DNA from: Glandiceps talaboti
Lineage: Eukaryota; Hemichordata; Enteropneusta; Spengelidae
Assembly (NCBI RefSeq): GCF_964340395.1
Contig: NC_135561.1
Coordinates: 144,001-208,000 of the forward strand
Length of the DNA: 64,000 bases
Reading direction: 5' to 3'
Positions 3,526-61,612 of this stretch are shown here, piece after piece. The number at the start of each line of letters is the position of its first letter. Position 1 is the stretch's first letter. The position numbers and the translations under genes were made by a program. The notes under the pieces are model-generated. The model did no database searches, had not been told where the DNA came from, and saw only the letters and a program-made list of their open reading frames with translations.

Positions 3526-4226
3526 AATGGGTCCTGGTGTGTATCACATGCACACTAGTAGCCCTGCATCATTTATGATCTTGTACATCCCTATGCAGAA
3601 CCCAGTGTCATATTTTGGTCAAGGACACAATTTGGTAGTTGTCTTCTGACTCCACATCAGTTCCTATGTAATTTTACAGCTCCTCTGATAAGAGAATGTG
3701 AGATTAAATTATGGGTCTTTAATGGGGTGTTAACACTGAAAATATGTATGTGGGTTATTAAATCACATTTGTACTGTAACAAATGTTATACTTGGTACTG
3801 TAAGTGTAAAAACAGTGATGAAAACTGCAATTTTAAATTCTTGCCATCAAATGTAAAGATAACACTGTTTAATTTCCAGTTATACAGTATTGCACTATGG
3901 TAGTTACATTGGCTATGACAAGTTTAGACAGACACAAACTAAACCTATTGTTGTAACACCAATTGACATTATTACACTCACATGTATTGTAACAGTTCTG
4001 CAAAATCTGTAGCCCTGAAAAAATAGGTCAGTGTATGGGAAGACCCTGCAGTGTTTTTATCATGGTAGTCAGTAGACTTCCAGTGTTTACACACTCTCAA
4101 TTACATTGTGATTATATCTACATTACTTAGTGAGATTCAGCTATCTCTCTGTATAGTAAGCTACTTTTCTGTCACAGCTTATCAAAACCAATGTTACCAC
4201 CATTGAAAGGACACTAAGATGTTTGT

Positions 4227-5330
4227 GATGATGTAACCCTTCTGTATAACTATATGTTATCGTATACCTATGCCTATATCAATCATTCTTGATGATGTAA
4301 CCCTTCTATATAACTATATGTTATCATATACCTATGCCTATATCAATCTTTCTTGATGATGTAACCCTTCTATATAACTATATGTTATCATATACCTATG
4401 CCTATATCAATCATTCTTGATGATGTAACCCTTCTATATAACTATATGTTATCATATACCTATGCCTATATCAATCATTCTTGATGATGTAACCCTTCTA
4501 TATAACTATATGTTATCATATACCTATGCCTATATCAATCATTCTTGATGATGTAACCCTTCTATATAACTATATGTTATCATATACCTATGCCTATATC
4601 AATCATTCTTGATGATGTAACCCTTCTGTATAACTATATGTTATCATATACCTATGCCTATATCAATCATTCTTGATGATGTAACCCTTCTATATAACTA
4701 TATGTTATCATATACCTATGCCTATATCAATCATTCTTGATGATGTAACCCTTCTGTATAACTATATGTTATCATATACCTATGCCTATATCAATCATTC
4801 TTGATGATGTAACCCTTCTGTATAACTATATGTTATCGTATACCTATGCCTATATCAATCATTCTTGATGATGTAACCATTCTATATAACTATATGTTAT
4901 CGTATACCTATGCCTATATCAATCATTCTTGATGATGTAACCCTTCTGTATAACTATATGTTATCGTATACCTATGCCTATATCAATCATTCTTGATGAT
5001 GTAACCCTTCTGTATAACTATATGTTATCATATACCTATGCCTATATCAATCATTCTTGATGATGTAACCCTTCTCTATAACTATATGTTATCATATACC
5101 TATGCCTATATCAATCATTCTTGATGATGTAACCCTTCTGTATAACTATATGTTATCATATACCTATGCCTATATCAATCATTCTTGATGATGTAACCCT
5201 TCTGTATAACTATATGTTATCATATACCTATGCCTATGCCTATGTCAATCATTCTTGATGATGTAACCCTTCTATATAACTATATGTTATCAAATACCTA
5301 TGCCTATACCAATCATTCTTGATGATGTTT
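4227..5330. repeat. 64-bp minisatellite array in SF1 intron
   Basis: About 17 head-to-tail copies of a 64-bp unit starting 'gatgatgtaacccttctatata'. Copies differ by only a few substitutions (tctgtata/tctatata/tctctata, atcgtata/atcatata). One copy has an internal duplication of 'tatgcc' near 5233. The near-identity implies recent homogenisation. It lies inside the intron between the last two SF1 coding exons. Confidence 0.97.
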
Positions 5331-21625: not shown

Positions 21626-23019
21626 GTAAGTTACCAATTACCTCATCTAGATCCTTCACACTGGCGGATTTCAAGTAAAGTTTCCTTCACAGATGCTATA
21701 CTTACACTTTCAATATTTTTACTTTAGTTAAACATCAGTCAGAAAATGGGACCCAGGGTGCATATTCTAAGTTTTAAATCGGCCCACTGTGCCAGATGAG
21801 ATCAGTGGCATCTTTATGAAGCGCTGCCAGAAAACGAGTGAAAATTCTTACTAAGTATTAAATCGGCCCATTGTGCCAGATGACATCAGTGGTGTCATCA
21901 CTTGATCTGAATATAAATTAATCTGCCTATTGTTACTGTTAGATAGGACCAACCAATCACACACTTTAATTTCATGATGGACTTCAACGCATATAAGCGA
22001 GATTGAACCATTGCTGTATAAAATTGTAATATAATTTTACCATTAGTATAAGTCTCAGTGTCTGTGTAGGAGGCAGTAAATCAAAATCCATCAGAGTGAA
22101 GGATCTAGGCTAATCACTATCCATTTCATAAAAACTAATTTACATAAATGTAAAGGTCACCTGCTTAGTCAACAATCTCTCTGAAATCTAAATTGTTTTC
22201 ACATACTGTAAGTTTCCAACCTCTTTTAAATCAGCAAAACTATGTTTTCATAGATGATAGTTAATAGTCAATATATCGATGCTAGCTCAACCGTGTAGGT
22301 TACTTTAGTATATTGTATGTGAAAATGGAAGTAATATAGAAGAGGTGAAAATAAAAAGTTCATCTCATATTTGATTCATCAAAACAAGATGTTTTAGGGA
22401 ACTTTGGCTGCATTTGAATGTAAACACAGTTAAACATCTTGTACTGCAGTGCAGTTAGGTAGTTGGCAAATATAGTCATAGTACTAGTGTGTGTGTGTGT
22501 GTGTACATTATTCCATTCCAATTTGTATACCATCCAGTATTTATCACTGTACATGTAAAATAACCTCTTGATAGATAATAACTTGGTGCATGTTATAACA
22601 AGCTCATTAACTTTCAAATGGGAAAACAGAGAAAAATGAAAATAGTACATTGAAAACTCTATAAAGTTGTAACCGATTGGTTTGAAAATATTGAAAAAAG
22701 AATCTTTGTGTGTATAATTAATGACTATAGTCTAGATTATAGTATAATTATACAGATAAAGTAATAATGATGCATGCTTTCCAAGACCTATGTATGAGTC
22801 ATGTCAGTCGTTGCCTTCCCTGAAAAAGAGCAACAACCCCAAGTAACATGAGCAAATGGATGACATAACACCTAGTGAAGGTAGGGTTATTTCTGTAAAC
22901 ACATCACTTGTATGGCTAGCAACCATATCGTCATGGTAACAACCATATGATATTTGATGTTGAAGCAATCCTACTATTTGAATTTAATAAAAATGACAGG
23001 ACAATATCTTGTTCATTTT
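21626..23019. other. Intron of the unidentified gene; short duplications only
   Basis: Contains two direct copies of 'aaatcggcccantgtgccag..atcagtgg' (about 21773-21812 and 21862-21898) and a short TG run near 22487-22504. Nothing coding is recognised. Confidence 0.6.
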
Positions 23020-23616
23020 ATATACTAAACAAGAGAGAGAGGTCGTGAGTTAGTTGTCAGTGATGTATATACTAAACAAGAGAGAGGTCGTGAGTTAGTT
23101 GTCAGTGATGTATATACTAAACAAGAGAGAGGTCGTGAGTTAGTTGTCAGTGATGTATATACTAAACAAGAGAGAGGTCGTGAGTTAGTTGTCAGTGATG
23201 TATATACTAAACAAGAGAGAGGTCGTGAGTTAGTTGTCAGTGATGTATATACTAAACAAGAGAGAGGTCGTGAGTTAGTTGTCAGTGATGTATATACTAA
23301 ACAAGAGAGAGGTCGTGAGTTAGTTGTCAGTGATGTATATACTAAACAAGAGAGAGGTCGTGAGTTAGTTGTCAGTGATGTATATACTAAACAAGAGAGA
23401 GGTCATGAGTTAGTTGTCAGTGATGTATATACTAAACAAGAGAGAGGTCGTGAGTTAGTTGTCAGTGATGTTTATACTAAACAAGAGAGAGGTCGTGAGT
23501 TAGTTGTCAGTGATGTATATACTAAACAAGAGAGAGGTCGTGAGTTAGTTGTCAGTGATGTTTATACTAAACAAGAGAGAGGTCATGAGTTAGTTGTCAG
23601 TGATGTATATACTAAA
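23020..23616. repeat. 45-bp minisatellite array
   Basis: About 13 nearly identical copies of a 45-bp unit beginning 'tatactaaacaagagagagg' and containing 'tgagttagttgtcagtgatg'. Only single-base variants are seen (gtcgtg/gtcatg, tatata/tttata; the first copy has an extra 'ga'). Lies in the presumed intron between 21625 and 24615. Confidence 0.97.
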
Positions 23617-30428: not shown

Positions 30429-30610
30429 GGGCACACATACACTTTTTTATGAGTGAGACAACATGAGAAGTAATTGGATATGATATCCTTATATCAATGC
30501 TGACCAATCTGTTATTGTGTCACTCAGTGGGGATGATTGGTCAGCATTGATATAAGGATATCATATCCAATTACTTCTAATGTTGTCTTGCTCATAAAAA
30601 ACGTGTGCCC
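30429..30610. mobile_element. Foldback element (hairpin) with ~80-bp arms
   Basis: The arms 30429-30509 and 30535-30610 are inverted repeats, identical over the inner 45 bp or so (gaagtaattggatatgatat.. to ..tgctgaccaatc). A few differences and one small gap occur toward the ends (gggcacac..gtgtgccc). The loop is 25 bp. Flanks suggest at most a 2-3 bp duplication (tta/taa), which is not decisive. No coding capacity. Confidence 0.85.
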
Positions 30611-32929: not shown

Positions 32930-33316
32930 TAGAATCTCTCAGTCCTCAGAGCTTCACTTTACTAAAATCTACACTAAATGAATTATTTTGTATGTACCGA
33001 TACCATCTACATAACATACTCCATCGTACTCGAACAACCTTGTACTGTGCGCCCTCATCGACCACATAGAGATATCTGTTCGTTGACATGTGACTGCGAT
33101 GCTCCGTATTTTTCGTGAAGTCCGAGCTTGGGCTTCGCGATAACACAGAGTGTCGCAGTCACACGTCAACGAATAGTTATCTCTATTATGGTCGATGAGG
33201 GCGCACAGTACAAGGATATTTGAGTACGATTAATTAGCTGGCATCGGTACATACAAAATAATTCGTTTAGCTTTAATTTTAGTAAAGCGAAGCTCCGAGG
33301 GCTGTAAGAGAGTCTA
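32930..33316. mobile_element. 387-bp foldback MITE with exact 9-bp target-site duplication
   Basis: An imperfect palindrome over its whole length. The left arm reads TAGAATCTCTCAG..cctcagagcttcactttactaaaatc and the right arm is its complement, ending ctgtaagagagtcta. The middle pairs 'atgtgactgcgatgctc' with 'gagtgtcgcagtcacacgt'. TGCTACTAT lies directly outside both ends (32921-32929 and 33317-33325). A 9-bp duplication and TAG..CTA ends fit a Mutator-type MITE. The arms differ at several sites and small gaps, so the element is not brand new. No coding capacity. Confidence 0.9.
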
Positions 33317-40687: not shown

Positions 40688-41937
40688 TAGTATGCAGTAC
40701 TAATTCATTGAAATACAAGCATTGCCTTATGTTTAGTATGCAGTACTAATTCATTGAAATACAAGCATTGCCTTATATTTAGTATGCAGTACTAATTCAT
40801 TGAAATACAAGCATTGCCTTATATTTAGTATGCAGTACTAATTCATTGAAATACAAGCATTGCCTTATATTTAGTATGCAGTACTAATTCATTGAAATAC
40901 AAGCATTGCTGTAAATGTTGTGAATTACAATGTTATAGTGAACAATTGAAATACAAGCATTGCCTTATATTTAGTATGCAGTACTAATTCATTGAAATAC
41001 AAGCATTGCCTTATATTTAGTATGCAGTACTAATTCATTGAAATACAAGCATTGCCTTATATTTAGTATGCAGTACTAATTCATTGAAATACAAGCATTG
41101 CCGTATATTTAGTATGCAGTACTAATTCATTGAAATACAAGCATTGCCTTATATTTAGTATGCAGTACTAATTCATTGAAATACAAGCATTGCTGTATAT
41201 TTAGTATGCAGTACTAATTCATTGAAATACAAGCATTGCCGTATATTTAGTATGCAGTACTAATTCATTGAAATACAAGCATTGCTGTAAATATTGTGAA
41301 TTACAATGTTATAGTGAACAATTGAAATACAAGCATTGCCTTATATTTAGTATGCAGTACTAATTCATTGAAATACAAGCATTGCCTTATATTTAGTATG
41401 CAGTACTAATTCATTGAAATACAAGCATTGCTGTAAATGTTGTGAATTACAATGTTATAGTGAACAATTGAAATACAAGCATTGCCTTATATTTAGTATG
41501 CAGTACTAATTCATTGAAATACAAGCATTGCCGTATATTTAGTATGCAGTACTAATTCATTGAAATACAAGCATTGCCGTATATTTAGTATGCAGTACTA
41601 ATTCATTGAAATACAAGCATTGCCTTATATTTAGTATGCAGTACTAGTTCATTGAAATACAAGCATTGCCTTATATTTAGTATGCAGTACTAATTCATTG
41701 AAATACAAGCATTGCCGTATATTTAGTATGTAGTACTAATTCATTGAAATACAAGCATTGCCTTATATTTAGTATGCAGTACTAGTTCATTGAAATACAA
41801 GCATTGCCTTATATTTAGTATGTAGTACTAGTTCATTGAAATACAAGCATTGCCTTATATTTAGTATGTAGTACTAGTTCATTGAAATACAAGCATTGCT
41901 GTAAATGTTGTGAATTACAATGTTATAGTGAACAATG
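40688..41937. repeat. 46-bp minisatellite with periodic 54-bp variant units
   Basis: About 26 copies of a 46-bp unit (agtatgcagtactaattcat, then tgaaatacaagcattgcctt and atattt). Four units keep the 13-bp 'aaatacaagcatt' but replace the other 33 bp by 41 different bases (gctgtaaatgttgtgaatta, then caatgttatagtgaacaatt and g). They start near 40906, 41283, 41430 and 41897. The last variant abuts the unique sequence on the right, so the variant may represent the ancestral flank copied into the array. Confidence 0.96.
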
Positions 41938-41988: not shown

Positions 41989-42359
41989 CAACTTTTTAAA
42001 GAGGCCAAATGGATGAGGATTGGGTATTTATTTTGGTTTTTTAATTTATAAAACAATTTTATCATGGCTTCCTACTTGAAAAATCACATAAGACAACATT
42101 GACAAAGTCTGTGTGTGTCACTCCATGCATTACAAAAAAGCTTCTTCTTTTTTTTAAATGTGTAAATAGTTTGTTTTAGTACGTCCAAGATTTTACACCT
42201 TTTATTGTTTTGCAATTTATTGAGTTACAAACAATGACTTGGCATATGTTGTTTCTCATGATTTTTTCAAGTACAATGCCATGATAAAATTGTTTTATAA
42301 AATTTAAAAAATCCAAATAAATACCCAATCCTCATCCATATGGCCACTTTTAAAAGTTG
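41989..42359. mobile_element. Palindromic MITE with ~118-bp inverted arms
   Basis: The left arm 41989-42107 and right arm 42235-42359 are inverted repeats over about 118 bp. Shared blocks are 'caactttt..aaag.ggcca.atggatgaggattgggtattta' and 'ataaaacaattttatcatggc', continuing to 'gacaaca..gacaaagtc' in imperfect form. The middle of about 125 bp is AT-rich. No target duplication is certain. It lies about 270 bp upstream of the ATP5IF1 start, near its promoter. Confidence 0.85.
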
Positions 42360-42633: not shown

Positions 42634-42689
42634 ATGGCGTTGGCAAGGTATGCAGGGCTCCGTTTAACAAGAAACTTGGCTGTTTTCAG
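42634..42689 (+). CDS. ATP5IF1: ATP5IF1 exon 1: mitochondrial ATP synthase inhibitory factor 1
   Basis: ATG in good context (aaaATGg). Encodes MALARYAGLRLTRNLAVF and two bases of the next codon, then donor TTTTCAG|GTAGGT. This is a typical mitochondrial presequence: arginine-rich, no acidic residues, amphipathic. With exons at 43125, 43715 and 46038 the gene encodes a 123-residue precursor. IF1 binds the F1 part of ATP synthase and blocks ATP hydrolysis when the matrix becomes acidic. The region upstream (42420-42630) contains CpG and is the presumed promoter; no TATA box is evident. Confidence 0.93.
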
Positions 42690-42858
42690 GTAGGTCGGTT
42701 TGTTAACTGCACGCCTTTCAGTGTATTTACTGAGTATCTTTCTGTTTGTGATTTACTGAAATCCTGAATGCAAGGATTGAAGGCGAAACCGAGATAACCG
42801 TAGATGAATTAGTCACGTAGCTTAGTGTCACCAACATGCATGCGATTAGGTCCGAATG

Positions 42859-43019
42859 TAGCTGCAATAATTGTAGCGTCTTGTTGCGGTTTTGTGGGTT
42901 TTTTCGTCTGTTTTGGTGACTTTTTAAGTTTTTGTGTTTAACACAAAAACTTAAAAAGTCACCAAAACAGACGAAAAAAACCACAAAACCGCAACAAGAC
43001 GCTACAATTATTGCAGCTA
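42859..43019. mobile_element. 161-bp near-perfect palindrome with 10-bp target-site duplication, ATP5IF1 intron 1
   Basis: Two 80-bp arms (42859-42938, 42940-43019) are complementary with about one difference (a G/T shift in 'gtgggtttttt' against 'ccaaaaaaa') around a single central base. Termini are TAGCTGCAAT and ATTGCAGCTA. GGTCCGAATG is present directly outside both ends (42849-42858 and 43020-43029). This proves insertion and, with the near-identity of the arms, a recent origin. The length of the duplication fits Mutator-type elements. The hydrophobic 108-codon minus frame across it is an artefact. Confidence 0.93.
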
Positions 43020-43124
43020 GGTCCGAATGGTGCAATATATTTATCGCTTGCAACAGAATATTTACTGCCCATTAAACAGTCGCATCTCTTTTCAAAATTT
43101 ATCTCGTTCGTTTCTATTTCATAG

Positions 43125-43176
43125 CCAAGCAAGATTGATGAGTGGTGTGGGAGAATACGGCTCTGGTGCAGGCAAG
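43125..43176 (+). CDS. ATP5IF1: ATP5IF1 exon 2
   Basis: The acceptor 'tttctatttcatag' joins in phase 2 to exon 1. Encodes SQARLMSGVGEYGSGAGK (residues 19-36), then donor GCAAG|GTAGG in phase 0. The presequence probably ends around the RLMSG segment. The glycine-rich start of the mature protein is usual for animal IF1. Confidence 0.93.
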
Positions 43177-43714: not shown

Positions 43715-43804
43715 GGTGGTGGTAGTGGAGGAGCTGTCAGAGAAGCAGGTGGTTCCTTTGGTAAAATGGAAGCTGCACATGAAGAACAATATTTCAGAAA
43801 ATTA
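43715..43804 (+). CDS. ATP5IF1: ATP5IF1 exon 3: inhibitory region
   Basis: 90 bases, phase 0 at both ends (acceptor 'ttatttgttgtag', donor AAATTA|GTAAGT). Residues 37-66 begin [20 protein letters not shown] and run on to HEEQYFRKL. This is the conserved minimal inhibitory segment of IF1 (human equivalent: [20 protein letters not shown], then RYFR), which inserts between alpha and beta subunits of F1. The key glutamate and the YFR motif are intact. Confidence 0.95.
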
Positions 43805-43867: not shown

Positions 43868-45551
43868 GTATGTCTCCATGGCTAACTAGCCATACTTGAT
43901 ATCCTATGGTTCACATCCAACTATCAATTCTGTTTGTATGTCTCCATGGCTATCAATTCTATTTGTATGTCTTCATGGCTATCAATTCTATTTGTATGTC
44001 TCCATGGCTATCAATTCTGTTTGTATGTCTTCATGGCTATCAATTCTATATGTATGTCTCCATGGCTAACTAGCCATACTTGATATCCTATGGTTCACAT
44101 CCAACTATCAATTCTATTTGTATGTCTTCATGGCTATCAATTCTATTTGTATGTCTCCATGGCTATCAATTCTGTTTGTATGTCTTCATGGCTATCAATT
44201 CTATATGTATGTCTCCATGGCTAACTAGCCATACTTGATATCCTATGGTTCACATCCAACTATCAATTCTATTTGTACGTCTCCATGGCTATCAATTCTA
44301 TTTGTACGTCTCCATGGCTATCAATTCTGTTTGTATGTCTTCATGTCTAACTAACCATACTTGATATCCTATGGTTCACATCTAACTATCAATTCTGTTT
44401 GTATGTCTTCATGTCTAACTAACCATACTTGATATCCTATGGTTCACATCTAACTATCAATTCTGTTTGTATGTCTCCATGGCTAACTAGCCATACTTGA
44501 TATCCTATGGTTCACATCTAACTATCAATTCTGTTTGTATGTCTTCATGTCTAACTAGCCATACTTGATATCCTATGGTTCACATCTAACTATCAATTCT
44601 GTTTGTATGTCTTCATGTCTAACTAGCCATACTTGATATCCTATGGTTCACATCTAACTATCAATTCTGTTTGTATGTCTTCATGTCTAACTAACCATAC
44701 TTGATATCCTATGGTTCACATCTAACTATCAATTCTGTTTGTATGTCTTCATGTCTAACTAACCATACTTGATATCCTATGGTTCACATCTAACTATCAA
44801 TTCTGTTTGTATGTCTTCATGTCTAACTAACCATACTTGATATCCTATGGTTCACATCTAACTATCAATTCTGTTTGTATGTCTTCATGTCTAACTAACC
44901 ATACTTGATATCCTATGGTTCACATCTAACTATCAATTCTGTTTGTATGTCTCCATGGCTAACTAGCCATACTTGATATCCTATGGTTCACATCTAACTA
45001 TCAATTCTATTTGCATGTCTCCATGGCTATCAATTCTATTTGCATGTCTCCATGGCTAACTAGCCATACTTGATATCCTATGGTTCACATCTAACTATCA
45101 ATTCTGTTTGTATGTCTTCATGTCTAACTAACCATACTTGATATCCTATGGTTCACATCTAACTATCAATTCTGTTTGTATGTCTTCATGTCTAACTAAC
45201 CATACTTGATATCCTATGGTTCACATCTAACTATCAATTCTGTTTGTATGTCTTCATGTCTAACTAACCATACTTGATATCCTATGGTTCACATCTAACT
45301 ATCAATTCTATTTGTATGTCTTCATGTCTAACTAACCATACTTGATATCCTATGGTTCACATCTAACTATCAATTCTGTTTGTATGTCTTCATGTCTAAC
45401 TAACCATACTTGATATCCTATGGTTCACATCTAACTATCAATTCTGTTTGTATGTCTTCATGTCTAACTAACCATACTTGATATCCTATGGTTCACATCT
45501 AACTATCAATTCTGTTTGTATGTCTTCATGTCTAACTAACCATACTTGATA
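43868..45551. repeat. 68-bp minisatellite with embedded 29-30 bp subunits, ATP5IF1 intron 3
   Basis: About 25 units. The main 68-bp unit contains 'ctatggttcacatctaacta', 'tcaattctgtttgtatgtct' and 'tcatgtctaactaaccatac', ending 'ttgatatc'. In the left third (43920-44330) and near 45010 shorter subunits of 29-30 bp ('tatcaattctatttgtatgt' plus 'ctccatggc') are interleaved with the long ones. The right two thirds are nearly pure 68-bp copies, suggesting that these amplified last. Confidence 0.96.
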
Positions 45552-48933: not shown

Positions 48934-49279
48934 CTGCTACCATCACCATCATATTTTAACAACAACATTCAACAAAATGCATCATTTTATTAAACGATTT
49001 TCTTACAATATATGCAGTTTTATTTTTGTATTTTGGCATGTAAAGTACTTGTAAAAATAAATGTTGAGTACTCATCTCACTTTTACATCTCAAAACACAC
49101 CAAAAAAAACCAAATTGATAATAATTTAATTTTTAATTTGGTCACAAAACTACGGATTATAAAATGTGACCCTCCCCAAATATTGTAATGCAAAATATAA
49201 CCCACCCCAAAGAACAGGTTTGTAAAATGTGCCACCCCGATTCCGCTGGCCCTCCCCCGTGTAAATACTGGAGGCTCCC
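48407..49279. mobile_element. 873-bp Harbinger-like non-autonomous element (family C, complete copy)
   Basis: The left end GGGAGCCTGCAGTATTTGCGGGGG and right end ..CCCCCGTGTAAATACTGGAGGCTCCC are inverted repeats. TTA lies directly outside both (48404-48406, 49280-49282). A TTA/TAA 3-bp duplication is typical of PIF/Harbinger elements. The interior is itself nearly palindromic in its G-rich parts ('aacatgaccctccc..' against 'gggagggtcacatttt'). It contains an (ATC)n run at 48904-48936. The right 320 bp correspond in reverse complement to the half copies at 16755 and 50034. No transposase. Confidence 0.8.
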
Positions 49280-49282
49280 TTA

Positions 49283-50030
49283 GAGTCAATGTGACATGTT
49301 TCTGTAGTGATGTGGGGGGGGGGGGTAATTCCATGGGTAACATTACGGGGAGGCTCCTCACAAACATTGAAACCCAAAGCGTTGTGATACCATTGTTATG
49401 CAAAAAGTATACCCTTTCTGATACCAAGTTGCATTTTAATTAGTAAAAGTCAGGGCTCCCAGGGGAAGCTAGCCCTAGATATAGTATGGCATGAGCGACT
49501 ATAGTACGGAAGTTTTGAAGGTAGATACACCAGGTTGAAACGCTTCCAGTGTTGACTGCATAGCCATAGTCACTGTTAATTAACACCAGTTTTGATTCAC
49601 CCAACCCTTTCTCATATCACCACCTCGACTCATGAAAAGTATACCCTTTCTGATACCAACCAGCATAAATAAAAACGATCCCTTTCGCGCGGACCATCCT
49701 TGTATTGTCATCTATGGGAGTATAATTGTGAATTCCTAACTGTGATTAAGTAAACTATCGTAACGGAAAAACTAATATTGTCTAATGTGGCTATACATTT
49801 TCGAAAACTTAAATTTCTTCCTCATGATCTCCGTGGGGCAATTTGATGGATATCCATATACAACGAGGCGTTGCACAGATTTGACCTAGCTGGTATTAGT
49901 TTCAGATATTGAAGTGCTCAGGACACTGCAGCTGTCGACTATAGATCCTCACCTTTTCGTGCGGATAGCTTCTCGAGATGACAAGCGAAGTCTCTGAGTA
50001 GCCTAGAATCTAGGCGAATGGAGATTTGTA
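49283..50030. other. Intergenic, nothing recognised
   Basis: Contains a G-run near 49314-49325 and a pair of 'aaaagtataccctttctgataccaa' direct repeats (about 49404-49428 and 49636-49660). No coding sequence is recognised. Confidence 0.5.
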
Positions 50031-50033
50031 ATG

Positions 50034-50358
50034 GGGAGCCTCAGTATTTACAAGGGGGAGGAATTGGGGGGTTGGTCACATTTTACAAACCTGTTCTTGG
50101 GGGAGGGTCATATTTTGCATTACAATGTTTGGGGGAGGGTCACATTTGACAATCCGTAGTTTTGTGGCCAAATTGAAGATTCGATTATTGTCAATTCGTT
50201 TTGTGTGTTTTCCGATGTAAAGTGAGATTAGCACTCAACATTTATTTTTACAAGTACTTTACATGCCAAAATACAAAAATAAAAATACATACATTGTAAG
50301 AAAATTGTTTAATAAAAACATTTTGTTGAGTGTACCATCTCACCTTATCACATCTCCC
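50034..50358 (+). mobile_element. Harbinger-like repeat family C, half copy 2
   Basis: Begins GGGAGCCTCAGTATTTACAAGGGGG and follows the half copy at 16755 block by block to 'ttgttgagtgtaccatctcaccttatcac'. It ends ctccctta, like the element terminus. If both ends are true termini, this is a short solo derivative with one internal half. A matching 3-bp duplication is not seen on the left. Confidence 0.75.
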
Positions 50359-50689: not shown

Positions 50690-51727
50690 TCTGCGGGGGT
50701 ATACGGTAGTTCGTCCGGAATAAAGAAGTGTTTGGTGTGTTTATTTGACGCCGTTGTTTGCCTATTTGGAAGAGTGTAAACAACTCAGTTTATTCAGGAA
50801 CATACTACATTTCGTGTACAGTAGCTGAAGCAGGGCTTTCGGGACTTGTTTCAACACACTAACGAAGTATCGAAAGAAGTTTATAGAAGACTTGGACATC
50901 GTCTGTAAACTGACAAAGTTTATGTATTCTTGTCCGTCTTCACGGTTGAAGGAGCTGTCACACTGAACCAACGTCTATAGCATCGGGAATGGATTGATAT
51001 GCCGAAGTAAACTGCGATCATAAACTAAACTTGACGAGGAACAGACACACCAGCAACGGAACCATGGAGAGAGAAGTTTACATTTACAAAAGCCATTGAG
51101 ATCGAGGTCTGAAGTAGAATTTCTCGTAATCCACTTTGAGATTGTAACAGTTCACCGGTATCAGTTACTAGTCGCTTTTGTTGATCCTTGGAATTTTGGC
51201 CTATTTCAAACAAACGTCTCCGTGTTTCCCTTCGATTTAGAACTTGCACATTTACAGCGTGTGACTAACGTTATTTCTGCGACGTTATATAGTTTGTGTA
51301 GAGAAGAAACGATCATTAAGAAATAAGAATAGTTGTGAGAGTATGAAAGCCCTGGCATGTGGCATGAATAGAGAAGTTGACAGGCCGTGAATAGAACGTA
51401 CGCGTACGAACAACTCGACTGGATACACTTCCATTGGCATTCACGGGGCAAACAAAGTACAAACTTTCGTTCTCTAATCTTGTTGGTGTAAACTATCGCT
51501 TTGTGTGTGTTTGTAGCAGAAAGTTTGTAAACTTCAACGATTGTCAGTTTGTGATAGGTGATATTAAGGACGTGCAATAACTCCGCGAGTGGCTATCGAC
51601 CATTGTGGTGTGACCCTATGTAACTGGACCCCGTAGATTATAATTTATACCCGTCTTTGTTTTCACTGTGTGTGGATGTCTTGTGGTGGCCTCTGTTTTC
51701 CTCCGAGACGATTGAATTTGAGACAAA
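50690..51727 (+). promoter_or_regulatory. Promoter and 5' untranslated region of SMO
   Basis: The stretch is CpG-containing, unlike the flanking AT-rich DNA, and leads without an obvious acceptor into the SMO start at 51728. Several upstream ATGs with short frames are present. The transcription start cannot be placed; no TATA box is apparent. The minus-strand frames over this interval are not supported. Confidence 0.45.
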
Positions 51728-52159
51728 ATGGCCGACGTCCTGAAGATCTTCGCCCTTATATTCATGTTGGTAACAACTGTTTGTGAAGTTTTTGCAAGTG
51801 TAGCTGACCCTTGCAAGAGGGCAACGACTTGTGAAGCAGTAACTTCGGACACATGTCTCGGGACGAAATTGTCACACTCATACACATCAACCATCCTGGC
51901 GAATGACTCGAGTTCCCAAGACGAAATCAGAGCAAAGCTGGCCATGTGGAAAGGTCTGCAATATGTACCGCGATGTTGGGAAGTCATCCAGCCATTACTT
52001 TGCTCTGTATACATGCCGAAATGCGAGAATGGGTTTGTGGAACTACCAAGCTTAGATATATGTACGGTAACGCGAGGACCGTGTCAGATCGTGGAATCGG
52101 AGAGAGGATGGCCGTCGTTTTTGCAGTGTGACCAAAATCATTTTAAGGATGGCTGTGAT
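51728..52159 (+). CDS. SMO: SMO exon 1: Smoothened, signal peptide and cysteine-rich domain (partial gene)
   Basis: ATG in good context (aaaATGg). 144 residues end in phase 0 at donor GAT|GTAAGT. Residues 1-23 are a signal peptide (MADVLKIFALIFMLVTTVCE..). Residues 29-143 form the Smoothened cysteine-rich domain, with cysteines at 29, 35, 43, 83, 92, 99, 112, 119, 134 and 143. The strings PRCWEVIQPLLC, VYMPKCEN and RGPCQIVE-ERGWP-FL match human SMO closely. Asp60, Trp74 and Tyr95 align with human D95, W109 and Y130, which line the sterol pocket. Smoothened is the seven-transmembrane transducer of Hedgehog signals, held in check by Patched. Exon 2 is at 60034; the helices follow beyond the window. 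Confidence 0.95.
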
Positions 52160-54035
52160 GTAAGTGTATAGTTATAATTATATTGCCATTTGTAAAGACT
52201 TTCTACTATACGCCTTTCGAATAATAACATACATAAACTAAACTAATCACGTAAAAGTAAGTAACTCGTAAATTCATAAAATAGACAATTATCAGTCTAC
52301 TAATATCACCAATACTATAGAGAGAATGATCTGAGTCAGATCGAAATGAATTTTTATTGGGTGATTTCAGAATTGAGGGTACAGTAGAAAGTCATACTTG
52401 GTTTCTAACCAATATGCCCCTCCAAGTTTGAAAACTAAATTAACGGATGTCTTGTGCATGAACGTACACTAAGTTGATTGCCCAGGTTGATTGGTAATTA
52501 TGTATAACAGTATAACGTTAGGTGTGAAATATGTGATTGTCACTGTTACTCTGTGTTTATCCGTGCTGTAAACAAGAAATATCCCACAATCAGACCATTA
52601 ACATACACTGTGTCAATTTCATTATGATCTCGGAACAATTACAATTCAATTTGACTGTTGCTTGAACGTGATGTTTCCTGCAAACTTCAGTGCGCACTAC
52701 ATCAAACAAACACCTCTAACAAACCTACCCGAAAATTTGAATATTAATATAAAAGATTATACCTTCTGTTCAGAAAGGAGACGGGAAGTGTATTGAAATG
52801 GTAATAAGCTACCTTGATGACTTGAGCTAGACTTATTCAGTTCTTTGTCCCAGGGGAACGTTCAGTATTTGTCGTGTACTTGGCAACATTGTATCAGTTC
52901 GTCTAAACTACACTTTCGTTGTATGTGTGAGCTGTGACACAGCGTGACGCAATGTGCTCTGCAACGGTGAATTATTGAAATTTCTGAACTCAGTCATTTT
53001 GAAATTATACATTAATCAAATATTTGCAAATGACATAATAAACTTAAATATACCACAAAAAACCCAAATAATCATATTAAAGTGTACTGAGTTTATGAGA
53101 GTGTAGGCATGCGCATACACACTTCTGTTGAATTTGATTACAAAATATTATAAGGGGGGGGGGGGGTATTTATATCTCTGCACATTTTCTGATTCCTATA
53201 TCTCCAATATATTGATTCTGATTCATTTGGTACAGGCATGGAAGTATAATATTTCCATGGTACAGGGAACAGAATTCTACAGTAGTAATCAATATTCCAT
53301 GGAATATTATTTATAGGGATACTTCAGTGATATGATAGCATAGAATAATTAGTAAAGTTAAATTTACATTTATTAATGAAATAATATTTTCAATGGAATG
53401 TTATTCCGGTAGAGGGGAGACATTATATTATAAGAGCAAAATGAAATTCCAATGAGAAATAGTTTGAATATTTACAATTTCAAATATAGTAATTTAAAAT
53501 CATCTTTCTACAGGGTGGGGTGGGGTGGGGTGTTTGTACACAAAATAACTACACATGTTGAAAAGATGTTGTGTTTGCACAGCAACTAGTGTGATTAAAC
53601 CAGAGTGTGAATTTCAGATTTTGGTTTTATGTAGTTGATGGTTTGCTTAATCTATCTGTTGGCATTCTCCAGGTTCTTACTTGTCTTCATTCCCCACAAA
53701 ATAAGAAGTAATTATATAATGTGTAGAAGTCTAATGTGCAAGTTTACCAGATTTATACCACTTTTACTTGGGTTCCCAAAATGTAGCAAATAATTATAAC
53801 TGTGCATTTCATCAGCCCTTTGTCCAAAATAACTAAAGTTTTACTAAATGTCCCCCTCTATTTACATAATACTTTGGTTTTGTTTACTGGATATATGTGA
53901 CTCCACTATACCCCTTCACTATTATGGCAGCACTGATCCAGCAAGTAGAGACTAGGGTTCCCGTAATTTAGCTAAATACTGGGAGTCCAATCTTCCACGA
54001 CTCCAAAATAAAAATGCACACACCATATCTTCATT
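52160..54035. other. SMO intron 1, proximal part
   Basis: AT-rich intron without coding signals. Contains G-rich runs at 53154-53166 and 53515-53530 (ggggtggggtggggtg), the latter with four G tracts that could form a G-quadruplex. Confidence 0.65.
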
Positions 54036-54837: not shown

Positions 54838-56043
54838 AAAATAAAACCAGTTTAGAATCCAGCTAAAAACTGGTTTTATTCCCAGAGTTAACACAGTATT
54901 TAGTTTAGAATCCAGCTAAACACTATGTTAACTTTGGGAATAAAACCAGTTTAGAATCCAGCTAAATACTGTGTTAACTCTGGGAATAAAACCAGTTTAG
55001 AATCCAGCTAAATACTGTGTTGACTTTGGGAATAAAACCAGTTTAGAATCCAGCTAAACACCATGTTAACTCTGGGAATAAAACCAGTTTAGAATCCAGC
55101 TAAATACTATGTTAACTTTGGGAATAAAACCAGTTTAGAATCCAGCTAAACACCATGTTAACTCTTGGAATAAAACCAGTTTAGAATCCAGCTAAATACT
55201 GTGTTAACTCTGGGAATAAAACCAGTTTAGAATCCAGCTAAACACTGTGTTAACTCTTGGAATAAAACCAGTTTAGAATCCAGCTAAATACTGTGTTAAC
55301 TCTGGGAATAAAACCAGTTTAGAATCCAGCTAAATACTATGTTAACTCTGTGAATAAAACCAGTTTAGAATCCAGCTAAACACCATGTTAACTCTGGGAA
55401 TAAAACCAGTTTAGAATCCAGCTAAATACTGTGTTAACTCTGGGAATAAAACCAGTTTAGAATCCAGCTAAACACTGTGTTAACTCTTGGAATAAAACCA
55501 GTTTAGAATCCAGCTAAATACTGTGTTAACTCTGGGAATAAAACCAGTTTAGAATCCAGCTAAATACTATGTTAACTCTGTGAATAAAACCAGTTTAGAA
55601 TCCAGCTAAACACCATGTTAACTCTGGGAATAAAACCAGTTTAGAATCCAGCTAAATACTATGTTAACTTTGGGAATAAAACCAGTTTAGAATCCAGCTA
55701 AACACCATGTTAACTTTGGGAATAAAACCAGTTTAGAATCCAGCTAAATACTATGTTAACTTTGGGAATAAAACCAGTTTAGAATCCAGCTAAATACTAT
55801 GTTAACTCTGGGAATAAAACCAGTTTAGAATCCAGCTAAATACTATGTTAACTCTGGGAATAAAACCAGTTTAGAATCCAGCTGAACACTGTGTTAACTT
55901 TGGGAATAAAACCAGTTTAGAATCCAGCTAAACACTATGTTAACTCTTGGAATAAAACCAGTTTAGAATCCAGCTAAATACTATGTTAACTCTGGGAATA
56001 AAACCAGTTTAGAATCCAGCTGAACACTGTGTTAACTCTGGGA
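54838..56043. repeat. 46-bp minisatellite with inverted first unit, SMO intron 1
   Basis: About 26 copies of a 46-bp unit (gaataaaaccagtttagaat, then ccagctaaatactgtgttaa and ctctgg), with alternating variants (aaatactgtg/aaacaccatg/aaatactatg; ctctgg/ctttgg/ctcttgg). At the left edge, 54865-54902 is the reverse complement of a unit, so the array begins with a head-to-head junction: one direct part-unit, one inverted unit, then the direct array. Confidence 0.96.
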
Positions 56044-56597
56044 AAACAAAATCTTGGTGAGATTTTTTTAAAACATGACAGTGAACCTACTATGAACCTC
56101 CAAATTTCCTTTGTTATTATTTCAAAATGACCAACAGCAAGCTTCCACATAGCAAAGTTTAGAGAGATTTGTAAAACTTTGATTTTCAGTGAAATTTGTT
56201 CCAATGTGCATTCTACCGTAATGTGCGGCATGCAGTACTCCTCAAAATAAGTCACTGAAATACACAGTTCATCATTTGAAATAAATAGCATATTACAATA
56301 GGTAATTACACTTTCATTTTTGAATTGAGGAAATTGTACATTTGAAATCTTAATTAGTACTTGAAAGTTATTAATAATAATGATGTATTACCTTTAATCA
56401 TGTATGCCACTATTAATCACTATAACTACTACTGTACAACTAGTAAATATGTTCTTCTCCATTAGCAATTGGAATTGTGGATTATATTTTTGTATACAAG
56501 GAAAAGAAACAGTGAGGGGAAAGTTTCGGAAACATCTAGTGTATAAATAATTAAATAGTGGAATTATTTTCAAATAAGGGTTTATACATTTTATTCC

Positions 56598-58740: not shown

Positions 58741-60033
58741 TTTCTAACAGAAAATAAGTTAATCATTGTCGACAAATAAATGAAAAAGTCAAGTTTTATT
58801 TAACATATTAGAATGTTTGACATTTCTTGAGTCTAATGGAAATTTGAATTAGTGCTAAATTGTAGAGAAACTTAATAATACAGGCTTAGGCTCGTTTATC
58901 CATGTGAGAAAATTACAATTTGTTGATTCTCACAATGAACAAGAAAGACGGTCTTGGACTGTGGCAGTGCTTTAAAAGAGGCTGTGGTTTATGACAATTC
59001 AATTTGTTGTCAAACAATGCATTTAAATATGATTTTAGACATTCATGATTTTTGCCATGCCATAATTTTACTCAAATAGAGAAACTGTTGACCAACATAC
59101 ATGCCAAGCTATCCATGAAAAATTGATCTGACAACACATCAGGTGTTCATAATTTATGGCGAGTGTAGTGTCAAGTATAGAAAATTGTGACCAGCATAGG
59201 ACAGACGGGGTGTCAATAAGTGAATATAATTTGACAAAGCCAATATCTTTGATTTCAGACATTCATGATTTTTGGCATGATTTCAAAAAATGAAATGCTA
59301 TATCTTTTATGCTTTTACATTTTTCATCTACTGACAGAATTTGTCATATTTGTAATTCCATTATCCATATTTCATTGTTGACTCATCGGAACCACTGACC
59401 AATATAATAGTGTAAAGTGTGTGTCTAGATTGATAGTGAAATCTACACCCTATATGAAGTGATATATACTCTGTGTGTGTTGTATTTTTATGGTGTAACT
59501 GAAACTGCTCTCAAAAAAAGTTATTTCTGGATTTTATCTTTCGATATCATTTAGTTATAAAGAAAAGATAGACAGACAGACAGACAGATAGATATATCTT
59601 ACTTGGCGTTTCAGTACCCTGTCAATAATCAGGGAGTAATCTAACATAATTGATAGTTTCCTTTGCTAGCATACATGTACCGCTATTAAACAGTCATTTG
59701 GTTTTCTCAATCTCATTTGAGATTTTATTTTTCTATGTACATATTTCCATTTATTTCATTTTCATTCTTTCTTTCTTTCTTTATCAATTATTTTTGTACA
59801 CGTAACAGTTCCAATGGAAATTACCAAATATCCATTTACAAAAGTAGGCCATGAAATTTTACAATAGATGTATGGAACATTATTTATAGTAATTATTAAT
59901 ATTTTTCAGAAAACTTGGTAATTTTTGGAATTTTCTAAGAATATATAAAAAGCGACATTACAAATACAACCCACAAAGTTACACACTGTATATAATGTTT
60001 AATAAATTTTATAATTTGTGTCTTTCATTTCAG
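58741..60033. other. SMO intron 1, distal part
   Basis: AT-rich. Holds one pair of direct repeats of about 33 bp ('tgattt.agacattcatgatttttggcatg', 59031-59063 and 59247-59281), a short (GACA)n near 59570-59586 and a (CTTT)n near 59766-59782. No coding sequence. Confidence 0.65.
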
Positions 60034-60243
60034 AATGTTTACGATCAACTGACTTTCAACACAACATCTGGTTGTGATCCCCCATTGGTTGCGACCCAAA
60101 ATCAGAAAAGTTGGTACGAAGATGTTGATGGTTGTGGAATTCAGTGTAAAAATCCATTATTTACTGCAGATGAACATGATAAAGTACATATCTTTATTGC
60201 AGTCATGGCATCCATATGTGTTGTGTGTACATTCTTCACTTTG
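60034..60243 (+). CDS. SMO: SMO exon 2: linker domain and start of transmembrane helix 1
   Basis: The acceptor 'tgtctttcatttcag' begins in phase 0, matching exon 1. 70 residues end at donor CACTTTG|GTAAGA in phase 0. The exon starts NVYDQLTFNTTSGCDPPLVA and continues with SWYEDVDGCGIQCKNPLFTADE, which matches the human SMO linker ([22 protein letters not shown]) almost residue for residue. It ends with the hydrophobic VHIFIAVMASICVVCTFFTL, the first membrane helix. One N-glycosylation motif (NTT) is visible. The next exon, expected to encode the rest of helices 1-2, was not found by 64000. The intron between the two exons is 7.9 kb. Confidence 0.95.
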
Positions 60244-60551
60244 GTAAGAATATTTGTAGTTCCTTTATGTCTTTCATTATCTATTACATGATGTGTGTAT
60301 GTTGTCTTAGTTGTCTATACATTGAATTTACCTCAGTCGATATGCTATCTTTTCAAATTCATAAAACAGTTTTACTTTTAGTTTTACTTTTACTTTTACA
60401 GTATTATAGTTTTCTTTCAGGCACTTGTTCCCACATAAGGATCTTCTGCCTCCTTCTCTTTGACCCTCTGGACTCATTCCACTGATACTTTAACTTAGAT
60501 ATTGTCACTACTGGATTACACATATTGATTAATTGTGCTTACCTAGTTCAT

Positions 60552-61612
60552 TCACTTGCTGTATATTTACTAAAAATCACTTGCTGTATATTTACTAAAA
60601 ATCACTTACTGTATATTTACTAAAAATCACTTACTGTATATTTACTAAAAATCACTTGCTGTATATTTACTAAAAATCACTTACTGTATATTTACTAAAA
60701 ATCACTTACTGTACATTCACTAAAAATCACTTACTGTACATTTACTAAAAATCACTTACTGTACATTCACTAAAAATCACTTACTGTACATTTACTAAAA
60801 ATCACTTGCTGTATATTTACTAAAAATCACTTACTGTATATTCACTAAAAATCACTTGCTGTATATTTACTAAAAATCACTTACGGTACATTTACTAAAA
60901 ATCACTTACTGTACATTCACTAAAAATCACTTACTGTACATTTACTAAAAATCACTTACTGTACATTCACTAAAAATCACTTACTGTACATTCACTAAAA
61001 ATCACTTACTGTACATTCACTAAAAATCACTTACTGTACATTTACTAAAAATCACTTACTGTATATTCACTAAAAATCACTTACTGTACATTTACTAAAA
61101 ATCACTTACTGTACATTCACTAAAAATCACTTACTGTACATTCACTAAAAATCACTTACTGTACATTTACTAAAAATCACTTACTGTACATTCACTAAAA
61201 ATCACTTACTGTACATTTACTAAAAATCATTTACTGTACATTCACTAAAAATCACTTACTGTACATTCACTAAAAATCACTTACTGTACATTTACTAAAA
61301 ATCACTTACTGTACATTTACTAAAAATCACTTACTGTACATTTACTAAAAATCACTTACTGTACATTTACTAAAAATCACTTACTGTATATTTACTAAAA
61401 ATCACTTACTGTACATTTACTAAAAATCACTTACTGTACATTTACTAAAAATCACTTACTGTATATTTACTAAAAATCACTTACTGTATATTTACTAAAA
61501 ATCACTTACTGTATATTTACTAAAAATCACACTGTATATTCACTAAAAATCACTTACTGTATATTTACTAAAAATCACTTACTGTATATGTACTAAAAAT
61601 CACTTACTCTTA
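60552..61612. repeat. 25-bp minisatellite, about 42 copies, SMO intron 2
   Basis: Unit 'cacttactgtatatttactaaaaat' with a few recurring variants (ttgctg, gtacatt, attcact). Starts about 310 bp after SMO exon 2. One unit near 61531 lacks part of 'cttact'. Confidence 0.97.

Follow-up and report, generated by a model that had tools for sequence, protein, structure and literature searches.

Judged from its own letters and those of its relatives, the palindrome in intron 1 of ATP5IF1 in the window (the whole 64,000-nt stretch analyzed, C14:144001-208000 of a 590.4-Mb assembly of 47 contigs) belongs to a high-copy family of small transposable elements that are non-coding and can form hairpins. The reading that we favor, and consider quite probable, is that the element is a non-autonomous palindromic foldback MITE whose spacer-free tip was revised at or soon after insertion. 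The family, its target-site duplications, its central deletions and the contrast with three looped relatives were directly observed.

Structure and Insertion Site of the Palindrome

The initial annotation described a 161-bp near-perfect palindrome located in intron 1 of ATP5IF1, and its structure was confirmed: two 80-nt arms, complementary at 79 of 80 positions, meet at a 1-nt centre and are bordered on both sides by an exact GGTCCGAATG repeat. The left 10-bp target-site duplication occupies positions 42849–42858 of the window and the right one, also 10 bp, positions 43020–43029. The left arm (42859–42938, + strand) starts with TAGCTGCAATAATTGTAGCG, in common with other copies, and the right arm (80 nt, − strand) extends over 42940–43019. 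The sole arm mismatch is a G at position 42898, the partner of which at position 42980 is A (T on the other strand); these are positions 40 and 122 of the element. The centre (42939–42940) marks where 29 bp of the 190-bp full-length palindrome have been deleted, as follows from the alignment with locus L095, and the exact position of the deletion is ambiguous across a 3-bp AAC repeat. The duplications, the mismatch and the centre are unstranded features. A repeat search gave 12 bp for the duplication instead of 10 bp, since TA is found both at the end of the element and in the left flank. The energy of the RNA fold predicted for the 181-nt stretch was −134.5 kcal/mol, versus −37.9 kcal/mol (sd 4.0) in 200 shuffled sequences (z = −24); the palindrome is far beyond chance. 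No second copy of the element was found inside the window, where the best other BLAST match had an E-value of 0.33, and the joined flanks of the window copy matched the window locus alone in the assembly, with no empty duplicate of the site.

The assignment of the host gene was likewise correct, since exon 3, which begins at about position 43715 (+ strand), matches the Pfam IATP domain (E-value = 9.8 × 10−11). The coding part of exon 1 (42634–42689, + strand) starts at the ATG at position 42634, and exon 2 occupies positions 43125–43176 (+ strand). Between them lies the GT–AG intron 1 (42690–43124, + strand), the borders of which were read by eye.

Distribution of the Family in the Genome

A search of the genome with the element yielded 767 first-look candidates, of which 40 places were scored, and each of the 40 matched on both strands, as is characteristic of a palindrome, with 80–100% identity. 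All 40 scored places were fetched; they had been picked for similarity to the window copy, which is itself among them (L048), whereas L049–L078 and L093–L101 were chosen for exact ends on C1, C2 and C4. The end TAGCTGCAATAATTGTAGCG, or a close variant of it, is common to the 40 fetched places, the ends of the family also being given as TAGCTGCAAT; in a few copies (e.g., L039, L041 and L044), terminal bases were changed or lost. The exact 21-nt end occurs 603 times in the genome (310 + 293), and the reversed control sequence was found 0 times.

Target sites were assessed in 52 elements, namely, 45 short elements, six of 457–492 bp and one of 694 bp. Exact duplications were present in 37 of them (29 of 9 bp, seven of 10 bp and one of 11 bp), so that the window copy falls in the 10-bp minority; a further nine sites had duplications with a single mismatch, one of them lying in poly-C, while two matched at 8 of 10 positions and four had no duplication. 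Among 20,000 random pairs of flanks, 0 matched at 9 of 9 positions and 6 at 8 of 9. Thus, other copies with duplications of 9–10 bp, which the initial annotation had proposed to look for, were found in the window's own assembly, and the dispersed copies with their target duplications bear out its view that a palindromic element was inserted as a discrete unit. Three bases outward from the duplication, C was present at 42 of 70 strand-symmetrized positions (a raw count, made post hoc on the 35 elements with a duplication matching at 8 of 9 positions or better), which as a post hoc observation suggests a palindromic target preference.

The flanks of other copies likewise gave no convincing empty site: the matches had 70–76% identity across the junction (L015 and L027), or up to 81% in short tandem-like repeats. 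It was also observed that the flanks of L061 are inverted copies of one another (~95% identity over ~150 bp) and that L012 and L058 have both flanks in common; hence, some copies may sit nested inside other repeats.

Central Deletions in the Short Elements

The intact short form is a spacer-free palindrome of 190 bp with 95-bp arms and the tip CGCACCTAACGTTAGGTGCG. It was found in L095, L096 and L097 as well as in L058, which is 195 bp long and has changes in the arms, with the tip intact. The copies L095, L096 and L097 are located on C2 (30.79, 30.91 and 30.98 Mb), one of them being inverted, and all have an intact tip and the same target duplication; therefore, they represent one insertion in a triplicated segment. 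The survival of the intact tip through this segmental duplication indicates that revision was not immediate in every copy.

In the alignment of the window copy with L095, all 161 retained bases are identical, a single 29-bp gap is present at the centre and the target sites differ. Consequently, loss of the tip is the only change between two independent insertions, and the arm mismatch, which L095 shares at its different target site, was most simply inherited. Neither this loss of 29 bp nor the frequency of central loss in the family had been recognized in the initial annotation. The initial annotation had derived the youth of the insertion from the identity of the two arms; its youth is supported for another reason, namely, the lack of any substitution between the window copy and L095.

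The distribution of deletions was analyzed in 51 short elements, L096 and L097 having been removed as duplicates of L095. A deletion of at least 3 nt overlapped positions 86–105 in 48 of the 51 elements and was found elsewhere in 7 of them. The tip was intact in two elements, and three had lost up to 4 nt on a side. One-sided loss (10 nt or more from one half, with no more than 2 nt from the other) was found in 26 elements and two-sided loss in 20 of the 51, so one-sidedness is not the rule. Where more than 4 nt had disappeared (46 junctions), an overlap of 1–8 nt was seen at 29 junctions, a longer overlap at three, no overlap at seven and extra bases at seven (raw counts that include chance overlap), which suggests microhomology joining.

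The rate of central change was estimated from copies with identical arms, using the 52 elements from which seven with gapped arms and two duplicates had been excluded. There were 29 pairs (formed by 10 copies) identical at 140 arm positions, and in 28 of these pairs the centres differed; thus, the centre changes much faster than substitutions accumulate. Four centre sequences, each present in two copies, recurred among the 41 readable centres, so some of the revised forms may themselves have transposed.

At the resolution of this comparison, gene conversion between the arms of inserted copies was rejected: of the private changes, 60 were one-sided and 0 were two-sided. In total, 46 elements compared over 76 arm columns gave 184 one-sided cells and 58 two-sided ones, the latter comprising 13 variants at 12 sites; a further 11 cells showed two changes that differed, and the 127 gapped cells were excluded. 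Since private two-sided changes were absent, the two-sided variants belong to source lineages. At arm position 40, the arms differ (G/T) in 10 of the 46 short elements, which by hand estimate fits near-random assortment, and at positions 37 and 75 the arms mostly agree.

Long Relatives and the Central Loop

The ends of the family are also found in longer elements. The 694-bp element at L090 (C1) has 322-bp inverted repeats around a 50-nt loop, two arm mismatches (positions 20 and 70) and the target duplication TCCTTGGGG, and its outer ~95 bp correspond to the arm of the window palindrome. Two further 694-bp copies, L102 (C11) and L103 (C7), have the different target duplications CTTTGTATTA and CATGGGTCC. 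Each agrees with L090 at 691 of about 694 positions, and they agree with one another at 692 (>99%). Such near-identity at different target sites indicates that the 694-bp class moved recently. A class of about 440–490 bp with the same ends gave 619 first-look candidates. The simplest origin for the 190-bp form is the outer 95 bp of each 322-bp inverted repeat in the 694-bp relative.

In contrast to the short elements, the three near-identical insertions L090, L102 and L103, on which the loop comparison is based, have the 50-nt loop unchanged. A search with the inner repeat of the 694-bp element listed 40 places, of which 25 had a match to one arm only, 11 had two arms 47–51 bp apart and four had two arms without a gap. 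Nine of the 11 two-armed looped places were read. Six further looped centres, chosen for having both arms around a 47–51-bp gap, keep the loop with few substitutions, and among them L108 and L109 have an arm changed or deleted beside the loop. Small central revision was not seen in the youngest two-armed looped copies among the nine places read. It should be noted that looped copies break too: at the one-armed place L091, the loop is present and the sequence breaks 19 nt into the second arm. In four relatives of the 694-bp type (C10:11281059, C14:18254512, C18:13202410 and C18:22472226), the loop is absent and the arm matches meet at the same query positions; these four are perhaps a loop-less sublineage.

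Proposed Origin of the Central Deletions

According to the favored reading, a transposase acting in trans would move the element, and the window copy would have entered intron 1 of ATP5IF1 with duplication of 10 bp of target. During insertion or shortly afterwards, a hairpin or cruciform may extrude from the spacer-free palindrome, and its tip would be opened or skipped and then rejoined, often at short matching sequences. Rejoining would remove central bases, in many cases from a single side, and the shortened centre, being more stable, would then be retained. The window copy would have passed through such a revision once, with the loss of 29 bp, and a loop would protect against it. What we infer in this scheme is the step carried out by a nuclease or during replication, when that step occurs, and which class of transposase is involved.

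Experimental palindromes, as presented in the extracts of the papers cited here, behave similarly. In mice, about 35% of offspring carried junction changes in a perfect transgene palindrome, which was revised mostly by small central deletions; deletions made up 93% of 118 changes analyzed in derived cells, and lost symmetry made the palindrome 25-fold more stable (PMC8701086). A 35-bp spacer lowered the breakage of an experimental palindrome to background, and a 52-bp spacer is stated to block rearrangement for Alu repeats, so that spacers protect in these constructs as well (PMC8701086). In eukaryotic cells, frequent replication stalling was removed by a 52-bp spacer, but not by a 12-bp one (PMC7999016). 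The size polymorphism of human PATRR11 arises via central deletion, with symmetric as well as asymmetric short alleles (PMC3197554). The central deletions, symmetric or asymmetric, of these palindromes thus resemble those described here, and by analogy the same process would explain the central-deletion pattern of the family (PMC8701086, PMC3197554).

A different origin of the short copies would be that each arose separately by internal deletion from a long foldback element, with a centre fixed at birth and unchanged after. The arm is indeed the outer part of the inverted repeat of the 694-bp element, and many deletion junctions have the short overlaps that end joining predicts. Nevertheless, in 0 of 53 short elements did repeat sequence extend past position 95 by more than one base, although the repeat is 322 bp long, and three 7–8-nt words spanning position 95 in the 694-bp element were absent from all 53 centres. 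The lack of sequence past position 95, together with the retention of 93–95 nt on one side in 26 of 51 elements, points to one 190-bp parent; with the arm mismatch common to the window copy and L095 also against it, independent origin is improbable. Granting revision of the tip in a 190-bp parent, its timing may be narrowed to the jump itself: the excised element or the donor gap would be hairpinned and opened during transposition, and each jump would tend to give a new centre. In favor of this variant, centres differ even between copies whose arms are identical, so that the centre changes far faster than substitutions accrue; L058 and L095–L097, which inserted with intact tips, argue against it, and we regard this variant of the favored reading as unlikely, although deserving of some weight.

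Mistakes in reading or assembling the hairpin tips might also account for the different centres, since palindromes are difficult for PCR and may trouble nanopore sequencing, according to an extract of PMC8701086. Some of the tip variation could have this source. As a general account it is very improbable, because some odd centres recur at unlinked sites on different arm backgrounds, the intact 190-bp tips of L058 and L095–L097 were assembled, and so were three 694-bp palindromes with the same loop. Retention of the palindrome for a function in RNA, as an intronic double-stranded hairpin for editing, splicing control or small RNAs, is the least credible of these explanations and would be surprising: by all appearances the window copy is young and unexceptional within a high-copy family, and the window has no Rfam match at gathering thresholds. 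Such a function would accord with the very strong fold predicted inside the intron and with the origin of primate mir-548 from Made1 palindromic MITEs, reported in an extract of PMC1784062.

Returning to revision of the spacer-free tip at or soon after insertion, a broader view of the family can be proposed tentatively, as one that may well fail: it would document in nature, and across the whole genome, how palindromes are repaired in an animal germline, with spacer-free copies scarred approximately once per jump, before any arm substitution, and copies with the 50-nt loop jumping unscarred. Tip revision may then belong to the transposition cycle and determine which forms persist. In the extracts of the literature cited above, the evidence on palindrome instability comes mostly from engineered constructs (transgenes and plasmids) and a few human sites, each a single locus; here, by contrast, a single palindrome has been inserted independently at many places on the chromosomes by one transposon family, in forms that lack or carry a 50-nt loop. 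From the family, the frequency, extent and sidedness of tip trimming in the germline can be measured, as can any protection by a loop.

Classification and Comparison with Known Elements

The family has dispersed copies, the same ends, a near-fixed duplication length and no coding capacity, as do transposable elements of the MITE type, and the 161–190 bp of the palindrome leave no room for a transposase. Long inverted repeats make up most of the element, both in the 694-bp relative and in the 190-bp form, as in foldback elements. The duplications of 9–11 bp lie within the 8–11 bp given for the Mutator-like (MULE) superfamily in an extract of PMC6446971. The initial annotation could not name a described family with these ends, and with respect to the ends this still holds; the structure, by contrast, fits a known kind, the Mutator/foldback MITEs. 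From the 9–10-bp duplications and the long inverted repeats, the transposase is probably Mutator-like.

No clear transposase-bearing copy with the ends of the family was found among the matches listed for the MULE Pfam domain, the inner repeat of the 694-bp element, the 460-bp class and the end sequence. The genome contains 31 MULE-domain matches, and none of the 16 on C1, C2 and C4 lies within 10 kb of the exact ends listed (from C1 to part of C5). The place L092 (C7) contains an open frame of 778 amino acids (L092:2110-4443) with a ZSWIM1/3-like MULE domain and a PHD finger; the ends of the family were absent within the 5 kb read. On C2, a one-armed match of 100% identity proved to be a broken copy and was rejected as an autonomous candidate. 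Two opposite-strand pairs were also observed: among the listed ends, C4:8190252/8191628, 1.4 kb apart, where an inner end pairs more closely, and among the matches listed for the 460-bp class, C12:20067543/20072206, 4.4 kb apart, where each is a nearly full short match.

Foldback structure with 9-bp duplications, as in the window family, is a property of the Drosophila FB/NOF foldback elements, and Made1 of primates is a mariner-type MITE. In the extracts available, Made1 is similarly a near-perfect palindromic MITE that forms a hairpin once transcribed, but its arms are 37 bp long around 6 bp (PMC1784062). The nearest published kind found in the available extracts is the Mutator/Foldback element Tm1 of root-knot nematodes, including the MITE-like Tm1-ML, which has mostly 9-bp (8–10) target duplications, composite long inverted repeats and a gene-less MITE-like class, with a single putative transposase copy in M. 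incognita (PMC3169594). Unlike the window family, Tm1 has repeats composed of motif C units and other ends, a mean arm identity of 93% and no clear target preference; spacer-free palindromes with scarred centres are not described for it in the extract of PMC3169594. Tm1 motifs A1 and A2 (exact) and C (up to 3 mismatches) gave 0 matches on both strands of the window copy and the 694-bp element. The Muta1/Phantom Mutator-like elements of Aedes aegypti are similar in their long inverted repeats, 8–9-bp duplications and recent identical copies, but according to the extract of PMC5225508 Muta1 has a transposase and subterminal tandem repeats; in the window family, no clear transposase-bearing copy was found among the matches listed. 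Rehavkus also has 9-bp duplications, inverted repeats of up to about 400 bp and a foldback structure, and it is marked by a PHD-finger transposase and a minisatellite before the 3′ repeat (extract of PMC6446971); a frame with MULE and PHD domains is present in the genome at L092, where the ends of the window family were absent within the 5 kb read. Among the matches listed from open-licence articles in PMC, available as extracts, no MITE family was seen to be described as varying between copies through loss of the centre.

Other Features of the Window

An element-like unit of about 1.37 kb at positions 48965–50333, with terminal inverted repeats of ~300 bp (84% identical over 320 nt), is probably another DNA transposon. 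Three more foldback structures, with different sequences and loops of 25–241 nt, were observed at positions 30443–30601, 32930–33316 and 41989–42359. Many long minisatellite arrays, with units of 25–68 bp, were also present, at positions 1–1205, 4226–5328, 23019–23616, 40688–41899, 44318–45551, 54902–56044 and 60552–61608. Two Smoothened-like exons, from a gene that we take to be Smoothened, are located at positions 51722–52168 (Fz domain by Pfam) and at about 59893–60291 (from reading of the sequence).
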